This document shows positions 19,920-30,946 of a stretch of 64,000 bases of DNA, piece by piece. How positions within the stretch are numbered: position 1 is the stretch's first letter; each line of letters begins with the position of its first letter. Below the pieces are notes generated by a model. It had not been told where the DNA came from, did no database searches, and saw nothing but the letters and a program-made list of their open reading frames with translations. The stretch is from assembly GCF_035918095.1 (NCBI RefSeq), contig NZ_CP109137.1, positions 1,240,001 to 1,304,000 of the forward strand. The letters are read 5' to 3'. This DNA is from Streptomyces sp. NBC_01750 (lineage in GTDB: Bacteria > Actinomycetota > Actinomycetes > Streptomycetales > Streptomycetaceae). The translations under genes were made by a program, and so were the position numbers.

Positions 19920-22900
19920 ATGGGTTCTGCCGCCGTACTCGTCGCCAATCGCGGAGAGATCGCCGTACGGGTGCTGCGCGCCGCCGCCGAGGCCGGAATG
20001 CGGACCGCGGCCGTGTACGCGGAGGACGATGCGGGATCACAGCATGTCCAACTGGCCGACGAGGCGGTGCCGTTGCCGGGGTCGGGACCTGCCGCGTATC
20101 TGGACGGCGGGGCGGTGCTGGCGGCGGCGCGGCGGGCCCGGTGCGGCCTGCTGCACCCCGGATACGGCTTCCTCAGCGAGGACGCCGGTTTCGCCACGGG
20201 CTGCGCGGAGGCGGGAATCGGCTTTGTGGGGCCGTCGCCCGAGGTGCTGGCGCTCTTCGGCGACAAGGGGCGGGCGCGGGTCCTCGCCGAGCGGGTCGGT
20301 GTGCCGGTGCTCGCGGGGACGCACGGGGCGACGGGTCCGGAGGAGGCGCGGGAGTTCCTCGCGGGGCTGGGTCCCGGCGGGGCGGTGATGGTGAAGGCCG
20401 TGGGCGGAGGCGGCGGGCGCGGTATGCGGGCCGTGCATGCCCTCGGCGATCTTGCGGAAGCCTGGGAACGCTGCCGGTCGGAGGCTCTGCAGTCCTTCGG
20501 GCGGGGCGAGTTGTACGTCGAGCGGCTGCTGGAGGGTGCCCGTCATGTCGAGGTGCAGATCCTCGGCGACACCACCGGGTCGGTGACCCATCTGTGGGAG
20601 CGGGACTGCAGCGCCCAGCGCCGCCACCAGAAGCTGATCGAGATCGCTCCGGCGCCCGCGCTGCCCGCGCAGTTGCGGGACCGGCTGCTGGGCGCCGCGC
20701 TGCGGATGGCGCGCGAGGCGGGCGTGACCGGGCTCACGACTTTCGAATTCCTCGTCGCCGGTGAGGAGTTCCATTTCATCGAGGCCAATCCGCGGCTCCA
20801 GGTGGAACACACCGTCACCGAGGAGGTGACGGGCGTGGATCTGGTCTCCGTACAACTGCGTCTGGCTCAGGGCGAGACGCTGGAGTCGCTCGGTCTCACC
20901 GAGCCTCCGCCACCCCGCGGTTTTGCCGTGCAGGCCCGGGTGTACGCCGAGGAACCCGGGACTGTGAGCCGGTTCGAGGTACCGACAGGCCCCGGCGTAC
21001 GGGTGGACACGGCGACGCGTGCGGGGCTGACGACGGGCACCCGGTACGACCCTCTCCTCGCGAAGGTGATCGCCCGGGTGCCGGCCGGCGCCGGTTTCGC
21101 GGCGGCGTGCGAGCGGACCGCCCGGGCGCTCGGCGAGTTCGGGATCGAGGGCGTCAGAACCGGGATTCCGCTGCTCCGGGCGGTACTTACGGACCCGGAG
21201 TTCGCCGCGGGCGGCACGGACACCGGCTTCCTCGAAAAGCTCTCGGACCTCCCGGGCGCGGTGGACGCCGATGCGAGTACCGCCGAGGCACCGATGAGCG
21301 GCACCGTCGTGGCGGTCGATGTCGCACCGGGAGACACAGTGCGGGCCGGGCAGCAACTGCTCGTCCTCGAGGCGATGAAGATGGAGCATGTCCTCAGGGC
21401 GACCACGGCCGGGACCGTACGGTCCGTACCGACGGCGGTGGGCGACACGGTGACAGAGGGACAGGCGGTGGTGCTGCTCGACCCGGCGGGGGACGAACCT
21501 GCCGATGACGGGCCCCTCGATGTGGGCGTCGACCTCGACCTCGTACGCCCGGATCTCGCCGAGTCGCTGCGCCGCCATGCGGTCGGCCTGGACGAGAACC
21601 GTCCCGACGCGGTCGCCAAACGGCATCGGATCGGCCGCCGCACGGCCCGGGAGAACATCGACGCACTCTGCGACCCGGGCAGCTTCACCGAGTTCGGGGC
21701 GCTCGCCATCGCCGCCCAGCGCCGCCGCCGCTCGCTGGAGGACCTGATCGTCTCCACGCCCGCCGACGGCATGGTCACCGGCACCGGGACGGTCGAGGGA
21801 ACTCCGTGCGTGGCGATGTCGTACGACTACACGGTGCTCGCCGGCACTCAGGGGCACCAGAACCACCGCAAGACCGACCGGATGCTGCAGCTCGCCGAGC
21901 GGCGGCGGCTCCCCGTGGTGCTCTTCGCGGAGGGCGGCGGCGGGCGGCCCGGCGATACGGACACCACAGCTGTCGCAGGGCTGGATCTCATGACGTTTCA
22001 CCAGATGGGACGGCTCAGTGGTCTGGTGCCGCTGATCGGGATCGCGTCCGGGCGCTGTTTCGCGGGCAATGCGGCGCTGCTCGGTTGCTGCGATGTGGTG
22101 ATCGCGACGCCCGAGGCGACGATCGGCATGGGTGGCCCGGCGATGATCGAGGGCGGCGGGCTCGGAGTGCAGCGGCCCGAGGAGGTCGGTCCGCTCTCCG
22201 TCCAGGTGCCGAACGGCGTGGTGGACATCGCGGTCGCCGACGAGGCGGATGCTGTGCGGGTGGCGCGCCGGTACCTCTCGTACTTCCAGGGTCCGCAAGG
22301 CAGTTGGGACTCCCCCGATCCGCGCGCGCTGCGGCATGCCGTGCCCGAGAACCGGCGCCGGGCATACGACATCCGGGCGGCCGTCCAGGGCCTCGCCGAC
22401 ACCGGATCGGTGCTGGAGCTGCGCCGCGGTTTCGGGACCGGCGTGATCACCGCGCTGGTACGGATCGAGGGTCGTCCGATGGGCCTGATCGCCAACAACC
22501 CAGGGCAGCTGGGCGGCGCGATCGACAGCGACGCCGCCGACAAGGCCGCCCGCTTTCTGCAGCTGTGCGACGCTCACGGCCTGCCGGTCGTCTCACTCTG
22601 CGATACGCCCGGATTCATGGTCGGTTCCGACGCGGAACGGACCGCGACCGTACGCCACTTCTCCCGGCTCTTCGTGACGGGCGCCCATCTCGGCGTACCG
22701 CTGGTCTGCCTGATCCTGCGGAAGGCGTACGGACTCGGCGCGATGGCCATGATGGGCGGCTCGACACGGGCCCCGCTGGCCACCGCCGCCTGGCCGAGCG
22801 GCGAGCTCGGCGGCATGGGCCTGGAGGGTGCGGTGCGCCTCGGTTACCGCAACGAGCTGGCCTCGATCGAGGATCCCGAGGAGCGCCGGCGGGCCTTCGA

Positions 22901-23075
22901 CGCGCGCGTCGCGGAGCTGTACGAGCACGGCAAGGCGGTCAACGCGGCGGCCGCGCTGGAGATCGACGCGGTGATCGACCCGGCGGACTCGCGGCGCTGG
23001 ATCCTGGCAGCGCTGGACGCCTGGTCGCCCGAGTCGGACGGCGCGGCGCGGCGGCCGTACGTCGATACCTGGTAG
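19920..23075 (+). CDS. Single-chain acyl-CoA carboxylase (biotin carboxylase, biotin carrier and carboxyltransferase fused)
   Basis: This 1051-residue protein combines parts that are usually separate subunits. Residues ~1-445 are biotin carboxylase (VLVANRGEIAVRVLRAA, ATP-grasp loop KAVGGGGGRGMRAV, EANPRLQVEHTVTE). Residues ~455-525 are a biotinyl domain with EAMKMEH and the biotin-accepting Lys487. Residues ~530-1051 are a carboxyltransferase (DYTVLAGTQGHQNHRKTDRM, VLFAEGGGGRPGD, LCDTPGFMVGSDAER). It should carboxylate an acyl-CoA using bicarbonate and ATP. Fused long-chain acyl-CoA carboxylases are known in actinobacteria. GGAGGAACTC gives a strong ribosome site for the chosen start. The acyl specificity is unknown, and no epsilon subunit gene is adjacent. 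Confidence 0.92.
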   Translation: MGSAAVLVANRGEIAVRVLRAAAEAGMRTAAVYAEDDAGSQHVQLADEAVPLPGSGPAAYLDGGAVLAAARRARCGLLHPGYGFLSEDAGFATGCAEAGIGFVGPSPEVLALFGDKGRARVLAERVGVPVLAGTHGATGPEEAREFLAGLGPGGAVMVKAVGGGGGRGMRAVHALGDLAEAWERCRSEALQSFGRGELYVERLLEGARHVEVQILGDTTGSVTHLWERDCSAQRRHQKLIEIAPAPALPAQLRDRLLGAALRMAREAGVTGLTTFEFLVAGEEFHFIEANPRLQVEHTVTEEVTGVDLVSVQLRLAQGETLESLGLTEPPPPRGFAVQARVYAEEPGTVSRFEVPTGPGVRVDTATRAGLTTGTRYDPLLAKVIARVPAGAGFAAACERTARALGEFGIEGVRTGIPLLRAVLTDPEFAAGGTDTGFLEKLSDLPGAVDADASTAEAPMSGTVVAVDVAPGDTVRAGQQLLVLEAMKMEHVLRATTAGTVRSVPTAVGDTVTEGQAVVLLDPAGDEPADDGPLDVGVDLDLVRPDLAESLRRHAVGLDENRPDAVAKRHRIGRRTARENIDALCDPGSFTEFGALAIAAQRRRRSLEDLIVSTPADGMVTGTGTVEGTPCVAMSYDYTVLAGTQGHQNHRKTDRMLQLAERRRLPVVLFAEGGGGRPGDTDTTAVAGLDLMTFHQMGRLSGLVPLIGIASGRCFAGNAALLGCCDVVIATPEATIGMGGPAMIEGGGLGVQRPEEVGPLSVQVPNGVVDIAVADEADAVRVARRYLSYFQGPQGSWDSPDPRALRHAVPENRRRAYDIRAAVQGLADTGSVLELRRGFGTGVITALVRIEGRPMGLIANNPGQLGGAIDSDAADKAARFLQLCDAHGLPVVSLCDTPGFMVGSDAERTATVRHFSRLFVTGAHLGVPLVCLILRKAYGLGAMAMMGGSTRAPLATAAWPSGELGGMGLEGAVRLGYRNELASIEDPEERRRAFDARVAELYEHGKAVNAAAALEIDAVIDPADSRRWILAALDAWSPESDGAARRPYVDTW

Positions 23076-23077
23076 CC

Positions 23078-23098
23078 ACGCCGCCGAGGCGTCGGCGT
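23078..23098. terminator. Short hairpin between convergent genes
   Basis: ACGCCG at 23078-23083 pairs with CGGCGT at 23093-23098 across a 9-base loop, in the 36-base gap between the carboxylase stop and the convergent SDR stop. Position suggests a shared terminator; there is no T-run. Confidence 0.45.
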
Positions 23099-23111
23099 CC
23101 GCCGGGCAGGA

Positions 23112-23951
23112 TCAGCCGACCCAGCCGCCGGTGAGGCCGAGCACCGCCGAACCGTCCAGGTCGGTGAGCTTGATGCCGGTGAAGCCGCGGGCCCAGTCCG
23201 ATGTCTGGATACGGAACGCGGGCCGGTCCGCCGTCAGCGCCTCGAGTACCGAATCGGCAGCCTCGGCCGGAGTCTGCGCACCGCTGAGGAACTGCGAGAT
23301 GGTGCGGTCCACGTAGGCCCGCATCGCATCGGCGTACGGACCGGCCGCGGCAATCGCGGCCTCCGGGTCGACACCGATGTTGCTGACGAACTCGGTGGCC
23401 ACAGCGCCGGGTTCGACGACGGAGACGGTCACACCGAGCTTGGCTGCCACCGGTGCCAGGCTCTCCATGTAGCCCTCGACGGCGAACTTCGCGGCGCAGT
23501 AGGCCTCATTGAACGGCTGCCCGACGACCCCGCCGACGCTGGTGACGGTGATCAGACGGCCACCGGAGGCTCGCAGGTGGGGCAGCGCCGCCTTGGAGAC
23601 ATGGAGCACGCCGAAGAAGTTGACCTCCATGACCTTGCGCACATCGGCAACCGTCTCGTTCTCGAGCGTGCCGAGGTGTCCGGCACCCGCGTTGTTGATC
23701 ACGGCGTCGAGGCGGCCGTGGTCACTGATGACGCCCTCGATCGCGGCGGCGACAGAGGCCTCGTCAGTGACGTCGAGCCGGCGGATGTCGAGTTCGACCC
23801 CGGCATCCGCGGCCGCCTTGCGCAGCGCGTCGGCGCGGCCGGTGTCGCGCAGGGTCGCGACGGTCTGCCAGCCGGCCCGCGCGGCGGCAACGGCCGCGGC
23901 CAGGCCGATGCCCGAGGAGGTGCCGGTGATCAGAACAACCTTGGAAGACAT
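23112..23951 (-). CDS. SDR family NAD(P)-dependent oxidoreductase
   Basis: The 279-residue enzyme is a classical SDR: cofactor loop LITGTSSGIGLA, NNAGAGHLG, catalytic Ser in LITVTSVGG, and the Tyr/Lys pair in EAYCAAKFAVEG. It should reduce or oxidise a small alcohol or ketone. It is divergent from a MarR regulator across a 95-base region with three dyads, so it is the obvious target of that regulator. The substrate is not readable. Confidence 0.9.
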   Translation of the reverse strand: MSSKVVLITGTSSGIGLAAAVAAARAGWQTVATLRDTGRADALRKAAADAGVELDIRRLDVTDEASVAAAIEGVISDHGRLDAVINNAGAGHLGTLENETVADVRKVMEVNFFGVLHVSKAALPHLRASGGRLITVTSVGGVVGQPFNEAYCAAKFAVEGYMESLAPVAAKLGVTVSVVEPGAVATEFVSNIGVDPEAAIAAAGPYADAMRAYVDRTISQFLSGAQTPAEAADSVLEALTADRPAFRIQTSDWARGFTGIKLTDLDGSAVLGLTGGWVG

Positions 23952-23973
23952 GGTGCGGCCTTTCGTCCATCAC

Positions 23974-24028
23974 ACTGAGCAGTTCAGTGCGTGTACACAC
24001 ACCATAACCATTCTGTGCGTGCACACGC
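23974..24028. promoter_or_regulatory. Three dyad elements between the SDR and MarR genes
   Basis: Three symmetric elements are packed in the divergent region. ACTGA-N5-TCAGT (23974-23988) is a perfect inverted repeat. GCGTGTACACAC (23989-24000) is centred on GTGTACAC, a perfect 8-base palindrome. TGTGCGTGCACACGCA (24014-24029) is centred on GTGCAC. The last two share the theme GTGCGTG-ACAC and are spaced about 26 bases apart between centres, as expected for paired MarR operators controlling both genes. Confidence 0.62.
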
Positions 24029-24046
24029 AACAGGTAGGATCTGCCC

Positions 24047-24508
24047 ATGGCAACCAGGAAGCTCACCCAGGCAGAGATGCCCGTGGCCGACCACGCCTTC
24101 TACGGACTGGTCTGGGCCGGCACTGTCCTGACCGAACGCGTGGACCGCGCCCTGAGCAAGGCCCACGACCTGCCGGTCTCCTGGTTCGAGGTGATGCTCT
24201 GGCTCGCCTCGAACCCGGATCCTGTTCCGGCCTCCGTGCTCGGCAACAGCACCATGCTCAGCCGCAGCCAGGTGTCCCGGGTCGTCGACGCCCTCCAGAG
24301 CCGCGGTCTTGTCAGCCGCACCCCGTCCCCACGTGACGCGCGCTCCGTCGAAGTGGCCCTCACGCCGGACGGTCACCAGCTCTTCGAAGAGGCGGACGCC
24401 ACGCGACGCGCCTGCCTGGCACCGGTCTTCACCGACCTCCTCGACACGGAGGACCTCGAAGCGCTCAGCACGGTGTGGCACAAGCTCAAGGCCGCCAAGG
24501 GCGACTGA
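24047..24508 (+). CDS. MarR family transcriptional regulator
   Basis: The 153-residue protein has the MarR winged helix: LPVSWFEVMLWLASNP, recognition helix region TMLSRSQVSRVVDALQSRGL and wing SRTPSPRDARSVEVALTPDG. Such dimers repress genes until a phenolic or oxidant ligand binds. It is divergent from the SDR gene and probably binds the dyads at 23974-24028 to repress both. AGGTAGGATCT precedes the ATG. Confidence 0.92.
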   Translation: MATRKLTQAEMPVADHAFYGLVWAGTVLTERVDRALSKAHDLPVSWFEVMLWLASNPDPVPASVLGNSTMLSRSQVSRVVDALQSRGLVSRTPSPRDARSVEVALTPDGHQLFEEADATRRACLAPVFTDLLDTEDLEALSTVWHKLKAAKGD

Positions 24509-24546
24509 CACCTGTTCGCCGAGTCACCAACGGCTCCCCGTACCGG

Positions 24547-25062
24547 TCAAGTCCCCCGAGGCACTGCCAAGTCGGTGAGCAGAGCCGTGCCGGGGGCGAG
24601 CTCGGACCAGTCGCCGCGCCAGGTGAGAACGGCGATGGCACTGGTGGGGAACTTCTCGCGGGCACGTTCCAGGGCGTCGCCGAGCGCCTCAGCGGCCAGT
24701 GCCAGCAGCAGCTCCTCCATTCCCGGGTTGTGGCCGACCAGCAGCAATGTGCCTACGGATATGGGTGTTTCACCTACGACACCGAGCAGCGCGTGAAGGT
24801 CCGCATCGTAGACGCGGTCCTCGTAGCGCGCTGATGGCTGGGTTTCGAGGTGCTCGGCGGCCAGTTCCCAGGTCTGTCGGGCCCGGACAGCGGTAGAGCA
24901 GATCACGAGGTCCGGGATGTAGTGGGCATCCCTCAGCCAGCGACCGGCAGCAGCGGCGTCCCTGCGGCCACGCTCGGCGAGCGGACGGTCGAAGTCCTCC
25001 ATCCCCGGCGGCCGGGCGGACTTGGCGTGTCTCAGGACGATCAGCCGACGTAGTTCTGCCAC
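24547..25062 (-). CDS. SixA-type histidine phosphatase
   Basis: The 171-residue protein has the RHG-type catalytic start LIVLRHAKSARPPG with the phospho-accepting histidine, the second arginine/glutamate region STAVRARQTWELAAE, and the second histidine in TLLLVGHNPGMEEL. It belongs to the SixA branch of histidine phosphatases, which act on phosphohistidine or small phosphoesters. The start is set at the GTG at 25062, preceded by GGGAGG at ideal spacing; the upstream extension of the frame is unconserved. The opposing MarR gene ends 38 bases away. Confidence 0.9.
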   Translation of the reverse strand: MAELRRLIVLRHAKSARPPGMEDFDRPLAERGRRDAAAAGRWLRDAHYIPDLVICSTAVRARQTWELAAEHLETQPSARYEDRVYDADLHALLGVVGETPISVGTLLLVGHNPGMEELLLALAAEALGDALERAREKFPTSAIAVLTWRGDWSELAPGTALLTDLAVPRGT

Positions 25063-25156
25063 AAGGCCTCCCGCGGTCGGCGATCCGTGCCGGACCCCCA
25101 GTATCCTTCCGCTGCGCGTGCTGTGCGGCCGAGGTCCCGGTTTTCCGCGCATCGGT

Positions 25157-25837
25157 TCATGCGCGTTTGGTGGAGTCGAGGTGGGCGAACACGACGACGT
25201 TGTCCGTGTAGTCCTTCGCCTTCCTGTCGTACTCGCCTCCGCAGGTGATCAGACGCAGCTGCGGGGAGGGCGTGTCGGCGTAGACCCGCTGATTGGGAAA
25301 GTGCGCCTTGCTGAAGGTCTCGACGGAGTCGACCTTGAACGTGGCGACGGTGTTGTCTTCGCGGGTGATATCGACCGTGCTTCCCGGCTTGAGCAAGCCG
25401 AGCTCCACGAATACAGCCGGACCGGTCTTGGTGTCGACATGACCCGCGACGATTGATGTGCCGCGCTCGCCAGGTGTGGGACCCCCCTGGAACCAGCCGA
25501 CCAGATTGTTGTCGTCTCCCGGTGGTGCGTTCAGCTGCCCGGAAGAACCGATGGACAACGGCGTGAAGGGCGCGTCGACGGCGATCTCCGTGATCGCGAG
25601 CCGCTTCGGGGCGGAACGGGACAACGCCAGACCGGCCGGCGGGGCCGGCGTGGCGGCGGCCCCGGGTGTGGTGGGGGCGGAATCCACAGCGCGGGCCGGC
25701 GGAGGGGCCTCTGCCGGGGTGGTGAAGGAGTTGTACACAAGGAGGAAACCCAGCCCAACCGCCGCAGCGGGCCACATCAGGGCGCGGCCGAAAGGGCGGG
25801 GGGCGGGAGCGGTACCGGACGGCTGCTGGGCGGCCAT
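25157..25837 (-). CDS. Class F sortase
   Basis: The 226-residue protein has one N-terminal membrane anchor (about residues 20-36, WPAAAVGLGFLLVYNSF), a Pro/Ala-rich stalk, and a sortase domain. Catalytic residues are the His of IVAGHVDTKTGP, the Cys of LRLITCGGEYD and an Arg just downstream (DRKAKDYTDN). Class F sortases cleave a C-terminal sorting signal and attach proteins to the cell surface. The next gene encodes a secreted repeat protein with a C-terminal membrane segment and basic tail, the likely substrate, although it lacks a standard LPxTG motif. Confidence 0.92.
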   Translation of the reverse strand: MAAQQPSGTAPAPRPFGRALMWPAAAVGLGFLLVYNSFTTPAEAPPPARAVDSAPTTPGAAATPAPPAGLALSRSAPKRLAITEIAVDAPFTPLSIGSSGQLNAPPGDDNNLVGWFQGGPTPGERGTSIVAGHVDTKTGPAVFVELGLLKPGSTVDITREDNTVATFKVDSVETFSKAHFPNQRVYADTPSPQLRLITCGGEYDRKAKDYTDNVVVFAHLDSTKRA

Positions 25838-25987
25838 ACGAGCGGGCCTTTCGCGTTACGGGGTGCGCCAGTGAGGCGTGGGCGGGCGACGGAACATTCT
25901 GTGGTGCGGAAAGGGCAATCGCCGCGGCCACCGCCCGGGAGGGACGGCGGCCGCGGCAGCAAACGAACGGCTAGTGGTTCGGCCCCA

Positions 25988-27112
25988 TCAGGCCGCCGTG
26001 ACGCCCGACCCGGTGCGGCGCAGCCGGTACGCCCCCGCGCCGAGACCGATGAGCATCAGTACCGAGCCGGCAGCCAGGCTGCTGCCTGACATGGCCAGAG
26101 CACCGCCACCGGCGTGGACGCCACCGTTCGGCTTCTCCTTCTTCCACTCGGACTTGTCGTGGCCGCCCTTCTCGGACTTCTCGTAGTCGCCCTTCTCCTG
26201 GCCCCAGTCATCGGCCACGGTCATGGTCAGCGCGCCGCCACCGGTGTGGACACCGCCGTTCGGCTTCTCGCCCTTCCCGGACTTCTCGTAGTCGCCCTTG
26301 CCGTAGTCGCCCTTGCCGTGGTCGCCCTTCCAGGACTTCTCGTAGTCGCCCTTCTCGGACTTCTCCGAGTCGCCCTTCTCGGACTTCTCGGAATCACCCT
26401 TCTCGGACTTCTCCGAGTCACCCTTCTCGGACTTCTCCGAGTCACCCTTCTCAGACTTCTCCGAGTCACCCTTCTCAGACTTCTCCGAGTCACCCTTCTC
26501 GGACTTCTCGGAATCACCCTTCTCAGACTTCTCCGAGTCACCCTTCTCAGACTTCTCCGAGTCACCCTTCTCAGAGCCCGAGTCATCAATCAGGGCCATG
26601 GCCAGCGCGCCACCACCGGTGTGGACACCGCCACTCGGCTTCTCGGAGTAGGACTTCTCGTGGTCGCCCTTACCGTGGTCGCCCTTGCCGTGGTCGCCCT
26701 TCCAGGACTTCTCGTAGTCGCCCTTCTCGGACTTGTCCGAGTCGCCCTTCTCGGACTTCTCGGAATCACCCTTCTCAGACTTCTCCGAGTCGCCCTTCTC
26801 GGACTTCTCGGAATCACCCTTCTCAGACTTCTCCGAGTCGCCCTTCTCAGACTTCTCGGAATCACCCTTCTCAGACTTCTCCGAGTCGCCCTTCTCAGAC
26901 TTCTCGGAATCACCCTTCTCAGACTTCTCGGAATCACCCTTCTCAGACTTCTCCGAGTCACCCTTCTCAGACTTCTCTTGGCTGTCGCTGCTGGACGAGC
27001 CGCTTTCCTTGTTCCAGTCGTCTGCCGAAGTCACGGCGAACGCGGCGGGAACGGAGATCATGAGGACCGCAGTGGTAGCGGCTGACGCGAATAGGGTGCG
27101 GGCAGAGCGCAT
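25988..27112 (-). CDS. Secreted GDSEKSEK-repeat protein, likely cell-surface anchored
   Basis: This 374-residue protein starts with a signal peptide (RTLFASAATTAVLMISVPAAFA) and continues with two arrays of the 8-residue unit GDSEKSEK, about eleven and nine copies, each followed by GDYEKSWKGDHGKGD-type variants. Each array ends in a KP-(N/S)GGVHTGGGAL module; a third such module (KPNGGVHAGGGALAM) precedes a C-terminal membrane helix (SLAAGSVLMLIGLGAGAYRL) and the RLRR tail. The mature part is extremely Lys/Glu/Asp/Ser-rich and surely disordered. The start at 27112 is favoured by AAAGGA upstream and the immediate signal peptide. Its place next to a class F sortase suggests surface attachment. 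The function is unknown to me. Confidence 0.85.
   Translation of the reverse strand: MRSARTLFASAATTAVLMISVPAAFAVTSADDWNKESGSSSSDSQEKSEKGDSEKSEKGDSEKSEKGDSEKSEKGDSEKSEKGDSEKSEKGDSEKSEKGDSEKSEKGDSEKSEKGDSEKSEKGDSDKSEKGDYEKSWKGDHGKGDHGKGDHEKSYSEKPSGGVHTGGGALAMALIDDSGSEKGDSEKSEKGDSEKSEKGDSEKSEKGDSEKSEKGDSEKSEKGDSEKSEKGDSEKSEKGDSEKSEKGDSEKSEKGDYEKSWKGDHGKGDYGKGDYEKSGKGEKPNGGVHTGGGALTMTVADDWGQEKGDYEKSEKGGHDKSEWKKEKPNGGVHAGGGALAMSGSSLAAGSVLMLIGLGAGAYRLRRTGSGVTAA
26351..26574. repeat. 24-bp coding tandem array (C-proximal)
   Basis: About nine near-identical 24-base units encode GDSEKSEK. Units differ mainly at synonymous positions (TCGGAC/TCAGAC, TCCGAG/TCGGAA), so the array probably changes length by slippage or unequal exchange while keeping frame. 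Confidence 0.9.
26721..26977. repeat. 24-bp coding tandem array (N-proximal)
   Basis: About eleven units of the same 24-base repeat as the C-proximal array. The two arrays share synonymous variants, which points to duplication of the whole array plus its following GGVHTGGGAL module. Confidence 0.9.
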
Positions 27113-27523
27113 GGGACACATTCCTTTCGCCGCGGCTGCGAAGACCGACACTTCATCGGTCACCGGATCGCAGGGGCGACTTGATTCACCGTCAGCCTCT
27201 TTTCCCCCCCGCACCAGCCGGGAGCGCTGCATTCGGGCTACACCGTGCGCTCTTCGAGTGAGAAAAAGCCGATAGTCACCCATTGGACGGCACGCCACGC
27301 CGAGTGGAGGTTTCGTCCATCACCGGCTCCCTCATGAGCTGATTGCGCCTCAGTTTCAGCTCTGTTCCCGGCCCCGCCGCGGTTTCGGGCCCCGCCTCTA
27401 CCCATGGGTAATTTGGCTGATCATCATCTCACCGCGGCTGCTTCTCCACCTCTACGATCCGATCACCGCACCCCGGTGGTGCAGTGCCTCCTGGCACGAC
27501 GGTCCGAGCCAGATGGAGCACGA

Positions 27524-29233
27524 GTGAGACGAACACAACGCCACGGTGGACACCGCGCCAAGGCCGGGGCAGTGAGTGCCGCTGTCGCGGTGGCACTCGT
27601 CCTCGTCGGAACAGTCGCCGCGGCACCCGCAGCGCAGGCAGCGGGGACGGCACCGGCATCAGCGGACCCGGGGCCGCAGCGCGCGGCAGCCCACGCCACG
27701 GCGGGACCCTCCCTGCGCCTCACCGACATCCCGATGAAGGACGGTGTCGTCCTCAAGGCGAACGTCTTCACCCCCGCCCCAGGCACACCCGGCGCCGACG
27801 CGCACGGCCGCTACCCGGTGATCGTGCAGCCGGCCAGCTGGGGGCAGAACGACCTCGAGTACGTCCTGCAGGGCAAGAAACTCGCCGCGAGCGGCTATCT
27901 CGTGGTCACTTACACCGTCCGCGGCTTCTGGCTCTCCGGCGGCGAGGTCGACGTTGCCGGGCCCAAGGACGTGGCGGACATCTCGTCGGTCATCGACTGG
28001 GTCATCGCCCGGACTCCGGCCGATCCGCGGCGGATCGGGATGACCGGTCTCTCCCTGGGCGGCGGTCTGACCCTGATGGGGGCCGCCGCCGATCCGCGGA
28101 TCAAAGCGGTGGCCGCGATGAGCGGTTGGGGAGACCTGGTCGACTCGCTGTACAGCGGCGAGACGCGGCATCTGCAGGCCGCCGCCGCACTCACCGCCGT
28201 AGGGGCACCCGTCGGCCGCGAGAGCGCCGAGTTCCGGCGGATGCTTGCCAACCTCTTCTCCGACCGCAATGCCCCCGACGTCGTCAGATGGGCGCAGACC
28301 AGGTCCCCGGGCGCACACGTGGACCGCATCAACACCAACGGCACGGCCGTCTTCCTCGCCGGCGCATGGGGTGACAGCATCTTCAACCCCAGCCAGATCA
28401 CTGCCTTTTATCAGAAGCTGACCGGTCCCAAGCGGATCGAGCTACGTCCCGGCGACCATGCCACGCAGGAGGTCACCGGACTGCTCGGGCTGGACAACGC
28501 CACCTGGGCGAGCGCGCTCAGCTGGTTCGACGAGCACCTCAAAGGCAGCGGCGGCTCAGCTCGGCCGCCGGTGGAGCTGGAAGTGCGGCCCGGCGGCGCA
28601 CGCGAGACCTATCCCTCCTGGCAGGCCATCAGTTCCCGGACCCAGCGGCTGCGGCTCGGCGGGGCGAACGCCTTCGGCACCGGTGCCCTCGACGGCGGCC
28701 CGCCCGGGAACAGCGGCACGGCCGGGACGGGATGGCAGACGCCGGTCGTCGGCGGTACTAACTCGGGCGCCGACGGCGGCATCACCGAACTGTCAGGGCT
28801 GCTCGACCAGGTCGTCAAGCTGCCTCCCGTCGTCGTGGTCCCGTCGCTGCCCCGCTGGTCCGGAGCCGTATGGCAGTCGGCACCGTACGAAGCCACACAG
28901 CACATCCGCGGAGCCGTCAGGCTGCACACGACCGTCACCGCCTCCGAGCCGGAGGGCACGGTGATCGGCTACCTCTACGACGTGAACGCCCTCGGCGTGG
29001 GGAAGTTGATCTCCCACGCACCGCAGAGCTGGTCCGGCAGGATGCCGGGGCGGGCCTTCCCCCTCGACATCCCGCTCTTCGCCACCGCCTACGACCTGCC
29101 CGCCGGGCACGGGCTGGCTCTGGTCCTCGATACCAAGGACCCGCTGTACGGCGGTCGCACACCGCTCCTCAGCAAGGTGTCGTTCGGCTCGCCGGAGAAC
29201 GACCCGTCCGAACTCCTGCTGCCCCTGCGCTGA
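27524..29233 (+). CDS. Secreted CocE/NonD family hydrolase (X-Pro dipeptidyl-peptidase S15 type)
   Basis: The 569-residue protein has a signal peptide (AGAVSAAVAVALVLVGTVAA, cleavage after AAQA) and an alpha/beta-hydrolase domain: nucleophile elbow GMTGLSLGGGLTLMG, acid in LAGAWGDSIFNP, and histidine in RPGDHATQEV. A C-terminal jelly-roll domain (about residues 380-569) fits the S15/CocE family. It probably cleaves esters, acylated compounds or X-Pro peptides outside the cell. The GTG at 27524 is chosen because GATGGAGCAC precedes it and the signal peptide follows; the frame is open to 27404. The following 174 bases show no gene. Confidence 0.87.
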   Translation: MRRTQRHGGHRAKAGAVSAAVAVALVLVGTVAAAPAAQAAGTAPASADPGPQRAAAHATAGPSLRLTDIPMKDGVVLKANVFTPAPGTPGADAHGRYPVIVQPASWGQNDLEYVLQGKKLAASGYLVVTYTVRGFWLSGGEVDVAGPKDVADISSVIDWVIARTPADPRRIGMTGLSLGGGLTLMGAAADPRIKAVAAMSGWGDLVDSLYSGETRHLQAAAALTAVGAPVGRESAEFRRMLANLFSDRNAPDVVRWAQTRSPGAHVDRINTNGTAVFLAGAWGDSIFNPSQITAFYQKLTGPKRIELRPGDHATQEVTGLLGLDNATWASALSWFDEHLKGSGGSARPPVELEVRPGGARETYPSWQAISSRTQRLRLGGANAFGTGALDGGPPGNSGTAGTGWQTPVVGGTNSGADGGITELSGLLDQVVKLPPVVVVPSLPRWSGAVWQSAPYEATQHIRGAVRLHTTVTASEPEGTVIGYLYDVNALGVGKLISHAPQSWSGRMPGRAFPLDIPLFATAYDLPAGHGLALVLDTKDPLYGGRTPLLSKVSFGSPENDPSELLLPLR

Positions 29234-29407
29234 ATGCCGACGCATGAGTCCGCGAAGGACGCGCGAGCCGAACTCGCCGCCGACGCCAGCCGCATCAGCC
29301 GTGTCCAGAACTCAAGGGGAGCCCGGGAAACCCCCCGTCAAGGTTGTTCGGTACGGCCGGATTTCGGCACTGCGGTCTCGCCACGTGCGAGGGGCCGGTC
29401 GCCCGGT

Positions 29408-30946
29408 CTATGCGCCACGACGGACCCGTGCGGCCTTGCGGGCCTCGGCGGTCTGCCGGGCCTCGGTGGCCCGGCGGGACTCACCACCGGAGCGACCGGG
29501 CTGACCCGGACGGGTGCCGCGGCCGCGGAACGGGGCGCCGCCGCGCTTGGGGCGCTCCGTCACGGGTGCGGTGATGGTGATGGGGATGCCGGAGGGGGGC
29601 TGTGCGCCGGTGATGCGGCTGAGTTCGGCTTCGCCGGAGCGGACCTGGGCGGTGTGCGGGGTGATGCCGGCGGCTGCCATGAGGCGTGCCATGTCGCGGC
29701 GTTGGTTGGGCAGGACCAGGGTGACGACGCTGCCGGATTCGCCGGCGCGGGCGGTGCGGCCGCCGCGGTGCAGGTAGTCCTTGTGGTCGCTGGGCGGGTC
29801 GACGTTGACGACGAGGTCGAGGTTGTCGACGTGGATGCCGCGGGCGGCGACGTTGGTGGCCACCAGTGCGGTGACGTGGCCGGTCTTGAACTGGGCGAGG
29901 GTGCGGGTGCGCTGGGGCTGGGACTTGCCGCCGTGCAGTGCGGCGGCGCGTACGCCGCTGTTCAGCAGGTGTTTGGTGAGCTGGTCCACGGCGTGCTTGG
30001 TGTCCAGGAACATGATCACCCGGCCGTCGCGGGCCGCGATCTCGGTGGTGGTGGCGTATTTGTCGGTGCCGTGGACGTGCAGGACGTGGTGTTCCATCGT
30101 GGTGACGGCGCCCGCGGAGGGGTCGACGGAGTGGACGACCGGGTCGTGGAGGTAGCGGCGGACCAGGAGGTCGACGTTGCGGTCCAGGGTGGCGGAGAAG
30201 AGCATCCGCTGGCCTTCGGGGCGTACCTGGTCCAGGAGTTCGGTGACCTGGGGCATGAAGCCCATGTCGGCCATCTGGTCGGCCTCGTCCAGGACGGTGA
30301 TGTTCACCCGGTCCAGGCGGCAGTCCTTGCGCTCGATGAGGTCCTTGAGGCGGCCCGGGGTCGCCACGACGACCTCGGCCCCGGCGCGCAGTGCGCCGGC
30401 CTGGCGGCCGATGGACATGCCGCCGACCACGGTGGCCAGCCGCAGCTTCAGCGACCGGGCGTACGGGGTGAGCGCGTCGGTGACCTGCTGGGCCAGCTCC
30501 CGGGTGGGCACCAGGACCAGCGCCAGCGGCTGCCGGGGCTCCGCGCGCTTGCCCTCGGTACGCGCCAGCAGGGCCAGGCCGAAGGCGAGCGTCTTGCCCG
30601 AGCCGGTACGTCCTCGGCCCAGAACATCCCGCCCGGCCAGCGTGTTCGGCAGCGTGGCCGCCTGAATCGGGAACGGCTCGTTCATGCCGAGGCTGGTGAG
30701 CGTCGTCAGCAGCTCGGCCGGCATGTCCAGTTCGCCGAAGGTCGCAGCCGCGGGGAGGGCCGGGGTGATGGTGACGGGCAGGGCGAACTCCCCCTGCAGT
30801 GCGGCGGGACGACGCCCATAGCCGCCGGAGCGGTTGCCGGGGCGGCTCTGGCCCTGCGGGCGGAAGCGGGCGCCCCGGTCGGAACCGGCGGATCCGCCCC
30901 TGCGGGGGTTGGAGTAGCGGTCGTTCGTGCGAGCTGAGCGGTTCAT
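29408..30946 (-). CDS. DEAD-box ATP-dependent RNA helicase
   Basis: The 512-residue helicase carries Q motif FPIQAATLPNTLAGRD, motif I GRTGSGKT, Ia PTRELAQQ, Ib TPGRLKDLI, II VLDEADQM, III SAT, V VATNVAARGIHVDNLD and VI HRGGRTARAG. Both ends are basic and Arg/Gly-rich (PRRGGSAGSDRGARF; PFRGRGTRPGQPGRSGG), useful for RNA binding. GAGGAAGG precedes the chosen ATG. It lies downstream of a cold-shock protein gene on the same strand, so a cold-induced role in unwinding structured RNA is likely. The motif I start, GRTGSGKT, differs from the usual AQTGSGKT. Confidence 0.94.
   Translation of the reverse strand: MNRSARTNDRYSNPRRGGSAGSDRGARFRPQGQSRPGNRSGGYGRRPAALQGEFALPVTITPALPAAATFGELDMPAELLTTLTSLGMNEPFPIQAATLPNTLAGRDVLGRGRTGSGKTLAFGLALLARTEGKRAEPRQPLALVLVPTRELAQQVTDALTPYARSLKLRLATVVGGMSIGRQAGALRAGAEVVVATPGRLKDLIERKDCRLDRVNITVLDEADQMADMGFMPQVTELLDQVRPEGQRMLFSATLDRNVDLLVRRYLHDPVVHSVDPSAGAVTTMEHHVLHVHGTDKYATTTEIAARDGRVIMFLDTKHAVDQLTKHLLNSGVRAAALHGGKSQPQRTRTLAQFKTGHVTALVATNVAARGIHVDNLDLVVNVDPPSDHKDYLHRGGRTARAGESGSVVTLVLPNQRRDMARLMAAAGITPHTAQVRSGEAELSRITGAQPPSGIPITITAPVTERPKRGGAPFRGRGTRPGQPGRSGGESRRATEARQTAEARKAARVRRGA

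Follow-up and report, generated by a model that had tools for sequence, protein, structure and literature searches.

A class F sortase gene paired in Streptomyces with the gene of a repeat protein that carries internal copies of its predicted sorting signal

The window, a stretch of 64,000 nucleotides from Streptomyces sp. NBC_01750 (genome G000, C1:1240001-1304000), encodes on its minus strand a class F sortase and a secreted repeat protein, the predicted substrate of the enzyme (Table 1). The sortase gene lies 150 nt downstream of the repeat-protein gene on the same strand, and both are presumably cotranscribed as one operon. Genes for a histidine phosphatase, a MarR regulator, and an SDR neighbour the pair at the sortase end, and a divergent S15-type hydrolase gene lies at the other. 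The first-pass annotation had paired a class F sortase with a secreted protein made of GDSEKSEK repeats, and both open reading frames and the NF033748 match of the sortase confirm it. The interval proposed there (25157 to 27112) covers the two genes and leaves outside a structured RNA leader that precedes them.

Table 1. Features of the sortase and repeat-protein locus, in window coordinates
Feature	Coordinates	Strand	Size or basis
Class F sortase gene	25157..25837	-	226 aa; NF033748 match
Secreted repeat protein gene, predicted sortase substrate	25988..27112	-	374 aa
Basic tail RLRR	26015..26026	-	Translation
C-terminal hydrophobic helix, residues 346-362	26027..26077	-	Hydropathy
Terminal module 3, EKPNGGVHAGGGALAM, predicted sorting motif	26090..26137	-	A1 profile
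Internal module 2, EKPNGGVHTGGGALTM	26222..26269	-	Pattern; internal-module profile
Second GDSEKSEK array, 9 exact units	26351..26566	-	Pattern count; Tandem Repeats Finder
Internal module 1, EKPSGGVHTGGGALAM	26597..26644	-	Pattern; internal-module profile
First GDSEKSEK array, 9 exact units	26747..26962	-	Pattern count; Tandem Repeats Finder
Signal peptide, residues 1-26	27035..27112	-	By eye; homologues share similar MRSAR starts
Structured RNA leader, three stacked helices	27123..27197	-	74 nt; model match; covariation

The repeat protein contains 18 exact GDSEKSEK units (9 per array), or 22 under a looser pattern, which agrees with the twenty or so units in two arrays noted before; Tandem Repeats Finder reported a 24/48-nt array at 26321-26977. 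Residues 27-331 consist of 20% Lys, 17% Glu, 12% Asp, 18% Ser, and 17% Gly. Three modules of the form EKP[SN]GGVH[TA]GGGAL[AT]M start at residues 157, 282, and 326. The three GGVHTGGGAL modules described earlier are thus present, except that the third reads GGVHAGGG, with Ala and not Thr. As had been stated, this third module directly precedes the C-terminal membrane helix and the RLRR tail, and the A1 profile described below scored 74.1 bits over module, helix, and tail (the window sequence being one of the 28 rows of that profile). A pattern search of the whole protein found no LPxTG-like motif, in line with the earlier annotation, and the protein, which lacks an LPXTG or LAXTG anchor pentapeptide, had no match in Pfam at E ≤ 1. 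By eye, the DDS or DDW stretches after the modules resemble one at the mature N terminus, so it looks as if the repeated entity were a module-plus-spacer unit.

The sortase scored 211.8 bits against NF033748 (cut-off, 166), which places it in class F. The active-site residues His133 and Cys199 are invariant in an alignment of five sortases (A2), and Asn213 takes the place in which other classes would have their catalytic Arg. This replacement in class F enzymes is known in Actinobacteria, according to the text available of PMC6998099; it may bear on catalytic strength, and the transpeptidase function of the present enzyme is a prediction. A single-sequence search of solved structures returned no match, and a profile search returned the sortase family protein 4d70 (E = 1.8e−5) and an antibody chain (E = 3.6e−4). 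The genome of the window encodes seven class F-like sortase open reading frames, six of them above the NF033748 cut-off; the other, L005, was assigned by our own sortase profile (153 bits).

We followed the pair across genomes with a profile (A1) of 28 terminal anchors. At E ≤ 1e−10 it gave 112 matches in 106 of 199 Streptomyces genomes, and at E ≤ 1e−8 it gave 7 matches in 6 of 296 phylum-wide genomes, all six being Streptomyces; one Kitasatospora (L100) has the anchor too, with a single module copy. In the 199 genomes, 102 of the 112 anchors are followed on the same strand by a class F sortase. Among the ten others, L238 overlaps its sortase in the frame count, L195 has its sortase about 1.5 kb downstream, and L069, L250, L273, and L288 are second anchors in genomes whose other anchor adjoins a sortase. 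At L259 and L257, anchor and sortase are on opposite strands and separated by 20 and 36 kb; the anchor of L222 is on a different contig from the sortase, and that of L258 is near a contig end. Pairs of anchors, or an anchor and a sortase, 20-36 kb apart and on opposite strands were seen in G013, G126, G123, and G078 and at L105/L107 of S. rishiriensis, as if flanking an inverted segment. In the database protein P0027, a window-type substrate and a sortase domain share one reading frame; a frame shift seems to affect its end, probably a sequencing error.

The sortases of these pairs can be told from other class F enzymes, since a window-type sortase profile gave at least 248 bits to the former and at most 212 to the latter. 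At E ≤ 1e−68 (at least 239 bits), this profile had 110 matches in the same 199 genomes, of which 105 have both the anchor and the sortase subclade, 88 have neither, 1 has the anchor only, and 5 have the sortase only (Fisher test, which ignores relatedness; P = 4e−49). All six mismatches are near contig ends: in the five sortase-only cases the contig ends 24 to 405 nt from the match on the substrate side, inside or shortly before the sortase gene, and holds no piece of substrate there, and the anchor-only match (G155) lies about 330 nt from its contig end. The sortases with window-type partners formed one clade, with 72 of 102 rows (support, 100/96) in a first tree and 73 of 113 rows (SH-aLRT, 99) in a larger one. 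The 102-row tree had lost 12 of 114 sortases to a motif and length filter, and the 113-row tree restored all but L005, excluded as a very long branch. Tree labels were set by hand for L111 and L154, and L010 and L068 were also named in the script.

The module had been proposed as a possibly undescribed sorting signal for the adjacent sortase. Its position in the protein, the linkage of 102 of 112 anchors, and the near-perfect co-occurrence with one sortase subclade support a sorting signal. The claim of novelty survives in part, because NCBIfam had already modelled the wider signal as NF058571 (the GVDTG sorting domain), and the window protein scored 11.4 and 17.9 bits against this model, below its cut-off of 29. 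One relative of the same family (G024:C14) passes it with 35.3 bits, and Streptomyces sp. ISL-1 carries GGVDTGGGAL literally, twice, inside its protein of the family. In the genome of the window, NF058571 had eight matches at E ≤ 0.05, the window protein among them (E = 0.044); six adjoin class F-like sortases, whereas L015 and L016 end in the LAxTG-type motifs LAETG and LADTG. The one remaining sortase (L009) has a neighbour with a similar PxG-type end, as judged by eye.

Beyond this genome, a class F sortase lay within about 1.5 kb at 27 of 30 NF058571 loci fetched from 41 related genomes, and one of the three loci without such a neighbour sits at a contig edge. A script assigned a partner with a PxG-type end to 102 of the 114 distinct class F sortases of the collected loci (71 of 73 window-type and 31 of 41 other class F sortases). 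The first-pass annotation had suggested searching the neighbours of class F sortases for the module, and related ends of the form PxGx[VM]x[TA]G do occur beside the other class F enzymes: 28 of 41 have a partner that fits the strict pattern PxGx[VMIL]x[TAS]G, and 31 of 41 one that fits the loose pattern, although scripted partners were defined by the motif itself, so that the latter count shows the presence of such ends and not the absence of other kinds. Among the 10 of 41 for which the script saw no PxG-type neighbour, L005, L007, and L009 do have one by eye or by NF058571, and L048 starts at a contig edge. Since PxG-type or GVDTG ends adjoin class F sortases, the wider signal goes with this class, and the module would work like GVDTG_CTERM, judging from its position in the protein, its class F neighbour, and its residue pattern.

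A module common in proteins without sortases would have spoken against this reading, as the first-pass annotation had pointed out, and it was not common in the 41 genomes. The internal-module profile gave 38 matches there at E ≤ 0.01, of which 34 were in the gene family of the window, three were weak (E of 0.0026 to 0.0094) and at the ends of partners of other class F sortases, and one (E = 0.0036) ended a peptidase-like protein. A module look-alike, L218 (C1:8613413-8613463 of the same genome, minus strand), is a 577-aa peptidase-like open reading frame that ends in KPQGGVATGGGAMA without a membrane helix and adjoins none of the listed sortases of this genome. Beside sortase L006, the class F neighbour L018 has an asparagine-rich repeat, GLGNNNGRDGNNN; class F sortases may thus often have substrates rich in repeats.

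New in this finding, along with the RNA leader, are the internal copies of the signal. Because the 69 named loci had been picked by the DNA pattern of the module, conservation was counted in the set chosen by the terminal anchor instead. There, 93 of the 112 anchor proteins have one to five internal copies, 174 in total, which match the core at ten positions in 154 cases, at nine in 16, at eight in 3, and at seven in 1. Of the 19 proteins without an internal copy, L236 is cut by a contig start inside a copy, L289 has a truncated frame, and 17 look intact; the pair can therefore do without internal copies. Nine sortases whose partners have a single copy (the partner being cut or frame-shifted in some cases) are dispersed over the tree, and copies thus seem to come and go. 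The PxG windows upstream of the terminal copy scored either at least 8 (173 windows) or at most 4 (66 windows), with none between (one internal copy without PxG scores 7), which suggests few decaying copies. No second signal copy was found in the 31 script-found partners of other class F sortases. By eye, the L005 partner (same genome, minus strand) is an exception, with PRGGVAAG and PRGGVNAG, and may be another instance of signal repetition.

Between internal and terminal copies of the same gene, silent differences were near saturation (pS of 0.436 versus 0.494 in a control with redrawn codons) and pN/pS was 0.178 (bootstrap, 0.150 to 0.209): the internal copies are under purifying selection. 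Internal copies of one gene differed less from each other (pS of 0.204), so some are younger duplicates. The spacers between them vary by species, with GDSEKSEK here and GRGDRDHGG-, KKDDSES-, or GQGDHDH-like units elsewhere (by eye), yet remain hydrophilic: 106 proteins, modules included, have a median of 47% D/E/K/R/H and 9% hydrophobic residues.

Upstream of 106 of the window-type genes, the 7-mers TGACGGT and GGAAGGA recur about 80 nt (85 genes) and about 14 nt (72 genes) before the start. The leader set comprised 78 sources from the 112 loci, after removal of six without a usable upstream stretch and 28 near-duplicates, and includes both the window and L068, which are the same place. A plain alignment of the 78 gave no consensus fold, because subgroups have different helix-2 sequences; grouping resolved this and revealed the helices CGUCG/CGACG, GGCCGGG/CCCGGCC, and GCUGAC/GUCAGC, ending at the ribosome-binding sequence (GAAAGG in the window, 10 nt before the ATG). 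In the 39 sequences, the window not among them, from which the model R2 was built, 90.7% of cells pair, versus 19-52% when slid. The model matched the window with 40.1 bits (E = 3e−7) and all 78 given sources, with 19 further matches at E above 0.1; the 38 sources outside the model all matched at E ≤ 0.005. Among these outside leaders, 88% of cells were paired, for 13 of 18 pairs at least one sequence had both partners changed, and covariation was 0.464, versus 0.196 shuffled and 0.03-0.09 slid (alignment A8 was fitted to the structure of the model and hence favours it). A single-sequence fold of the leader of the window prefers another pairing, so the case for the leader rests on covariation. 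The first structure of RNAalifold, a 5' TGACG/CGTCG hairpin, was rejected, since its covariation was no higher than that of shuffles in A6 or A8, where it paired in 97% and 82%, respectively. The CGTC of helix 1 can nevertheless pair with the upstream TGACG in this noncovarying way, and a two-state switch between this pairing and the supported fold is speculation.

The leader was found in 65 of the 69 named loci, Kitasatospora included, with three further weak matches; it was missing in L097 and L098, whose contigs begin inside the gene, and in L122 and L152. Among 54 other loci (53 controls and L032), only L032 matched at E ≤ 0.05, and it proved to be window-type. In the 41 relatives, all 14 matches at E ≤ 2e−5 precede window-type genes (next match, E = 0.0014); G023 has a window-type gene whose leader was missed under stricter filters, though its locus (L072) matched otherwise. 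True leaders of the subgroup of the window score 25-50 bits and the best stray genome match scores 31, so weak relatives of the leader may exist elsewhere. Rfam 15 at gathering score had no match in positions 22000-30000 of the window, and an Rfam search of six loci gave three weak matches (up to E = 1), none on the leader. We regard the leader, observed to date with this operon type, as a candidate new cis-regulatory RNA.

Sortases cut between T and G and pass the acyl chain to an amine. The text available of PMC13251363 describes this cut and transfer as well. The presence of T or A before GGG makes a cut there the simplest reading of the terminal copy, and the internal copies offer nearly the same residues in a hydrophilic chain, where the same enzyme should meet them. 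We find it probable that the locus encodes a dedicated class F sortase and its own substrate, with the terminal module as sorting signal, the internal modules as likely further sites, and the leader setting translation. The substrate would be exported and then stay in the membrane through the C-terminal helix and RLRR; the sortase would cut the terminal P-x-G-G-V-H-[T/A]-G-G-G after T/A, before GGG, and join the cut protein to the cell wall. The wall-linked charged chain, probably disordered, would form a hydrophilic brush, the internal modules would most likely be more sites that the sortase binds or cuts, giving processed or joined units, and the conserved hairpin abutting the ribosome-binding site would set translation of the operon. 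Several points count against this explanation. The internal copies lack the membrane helix that normally follows sortase signals, continuing with ALxxVxADDW, and differ from the terminal copy at one position (A in 94% inside; G in 55% and A in 44% at the end); 17 intact-looking proteins carry the terminal copy alone; the script saw no PxG-type neighbour for 10 of the 41 other class F sortases; Asn replaces the catalytic Arg in class F enzymes; and Actinoplanes missouriensis lacking all four of its class F sortases showed no visible phenotype, according to the text available of PMC13251363.

The main rival accepts the terminal module as the sole site of the sortase and assigns the internal copies, duplicated anciently with the repeat unit, a separate role in binding a ligand, a metal, or a wall polymer through GGVHTGGG and ADDW. 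Their own conserved downstream residues and missing helix would fit such a role, as would a His kept in 96-98% of the family of the window (the anchors having been chosen with a His-containing profile), whereas this position can be K, R, N, D, P, G, or H in other class F ends. However, the residues near-fixed at the end (P, G, G, H, T/A, G, G, G) are also kept inside at 94-100% per position, among them the T/A that precedes the presumed cut, and we hold this alternative to be possible and less likely than a sortase acting on both. The Lys before the module was dropped as a candidate isopeptide nucleophile, since just 65% of internal copies and 85% of terminal ones have it. It is rather doubtful that the substrate is a full chain of sortase sites, every module being cut after H-T/A and the units rejoined head to tail or to the wall into a charged polymer of variable length, with the new leader setting output; each unit would then start with GGG, the kind of nucleophile that sortase ligation employs, and finish with an acyl-ready H-T. 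We judge it very unlikely that the internal copies are functionless by-products of repeat expansion and gene conversion: their closer DNA likeness to each other than to the terminal copy and the 17 proteins that do without them could be so explained, but not the almost identical internal and terminal protein sequences at near-saturated silent sites, nor the gap between the two classes of PxG windows. Least likely of all, an ordinary membrane protein held by helix and basic tail, which alone would anchor it, beside a sortase that acts on something else, is hard to reconcile with 105 genomes of co-occurrence against six mismatches, all near contig ends, and with the similar protein ends next to other class F sortases.

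Common as they are in actinobacteria, class F sortases have no assigned function in the available texts of PMC6998099 and PMC13251363, in part because the search for substrates relied on pentapeptide motifs or the PF00746 anchor. The tight pairing described here is a concrete couple of class F enzyme and predicted substrate that helps to close this gap, an internally repeated sorting signal under selection would change the reading of sortase substrates, and reagents joining proteins at GGVHT|GGG could follow. The titles and opening lines of abstracts in the literature surveyed contained nothing about the leader, the module signal, or natural proteins in which one signal is repeated, and the word sortase is absent from the main text available of PMC2864571.

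Among known systems, NF058571 (GVDTG_CTERM) is the closest in form, sharing the C-terminal P-x-G-x-V-x-T-G-x-G, the helix, the basic tail, and the class F neighbour. It differs in that the window protein falls below its cut-off and in that the family of the window usually has internal copies. The enzyme belongs to the same family as other class F sortases (NF033748) by the curated cut-off. C. acnes SrtF, reportedly the first class F sortase studied, is said to be called a housekeeping enzyme in the title of its paper, whereas the sortase of the window looks dedicated to the neighbouring substrate. In Actinoplanes missouriensis, AMIS_11010 and AMIS_36440 are possible class F substrates according to their authors, and two class F neighbours in this species were set aside there for want of a pentapeptide motif, though named as possible substrates (PMC13251363, text available). 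By description, which is how we compare them, these proteins resemble the present one in having a signal peptide, a helix, and a basic tail beside class F sortases without a pentapeptide, and that text proposes no motif for them. In Streptomyces coelicolor, the class E sortases SrtE1 and SrtE2 act with LAXTG chaplins, in the text available of PMC5148588; that system is alike in that a sortase links secreted proteins to the wall by way of a C-terminal signal, as is predicted here, and unlike in its LAXTG motif and its different class of sortase.
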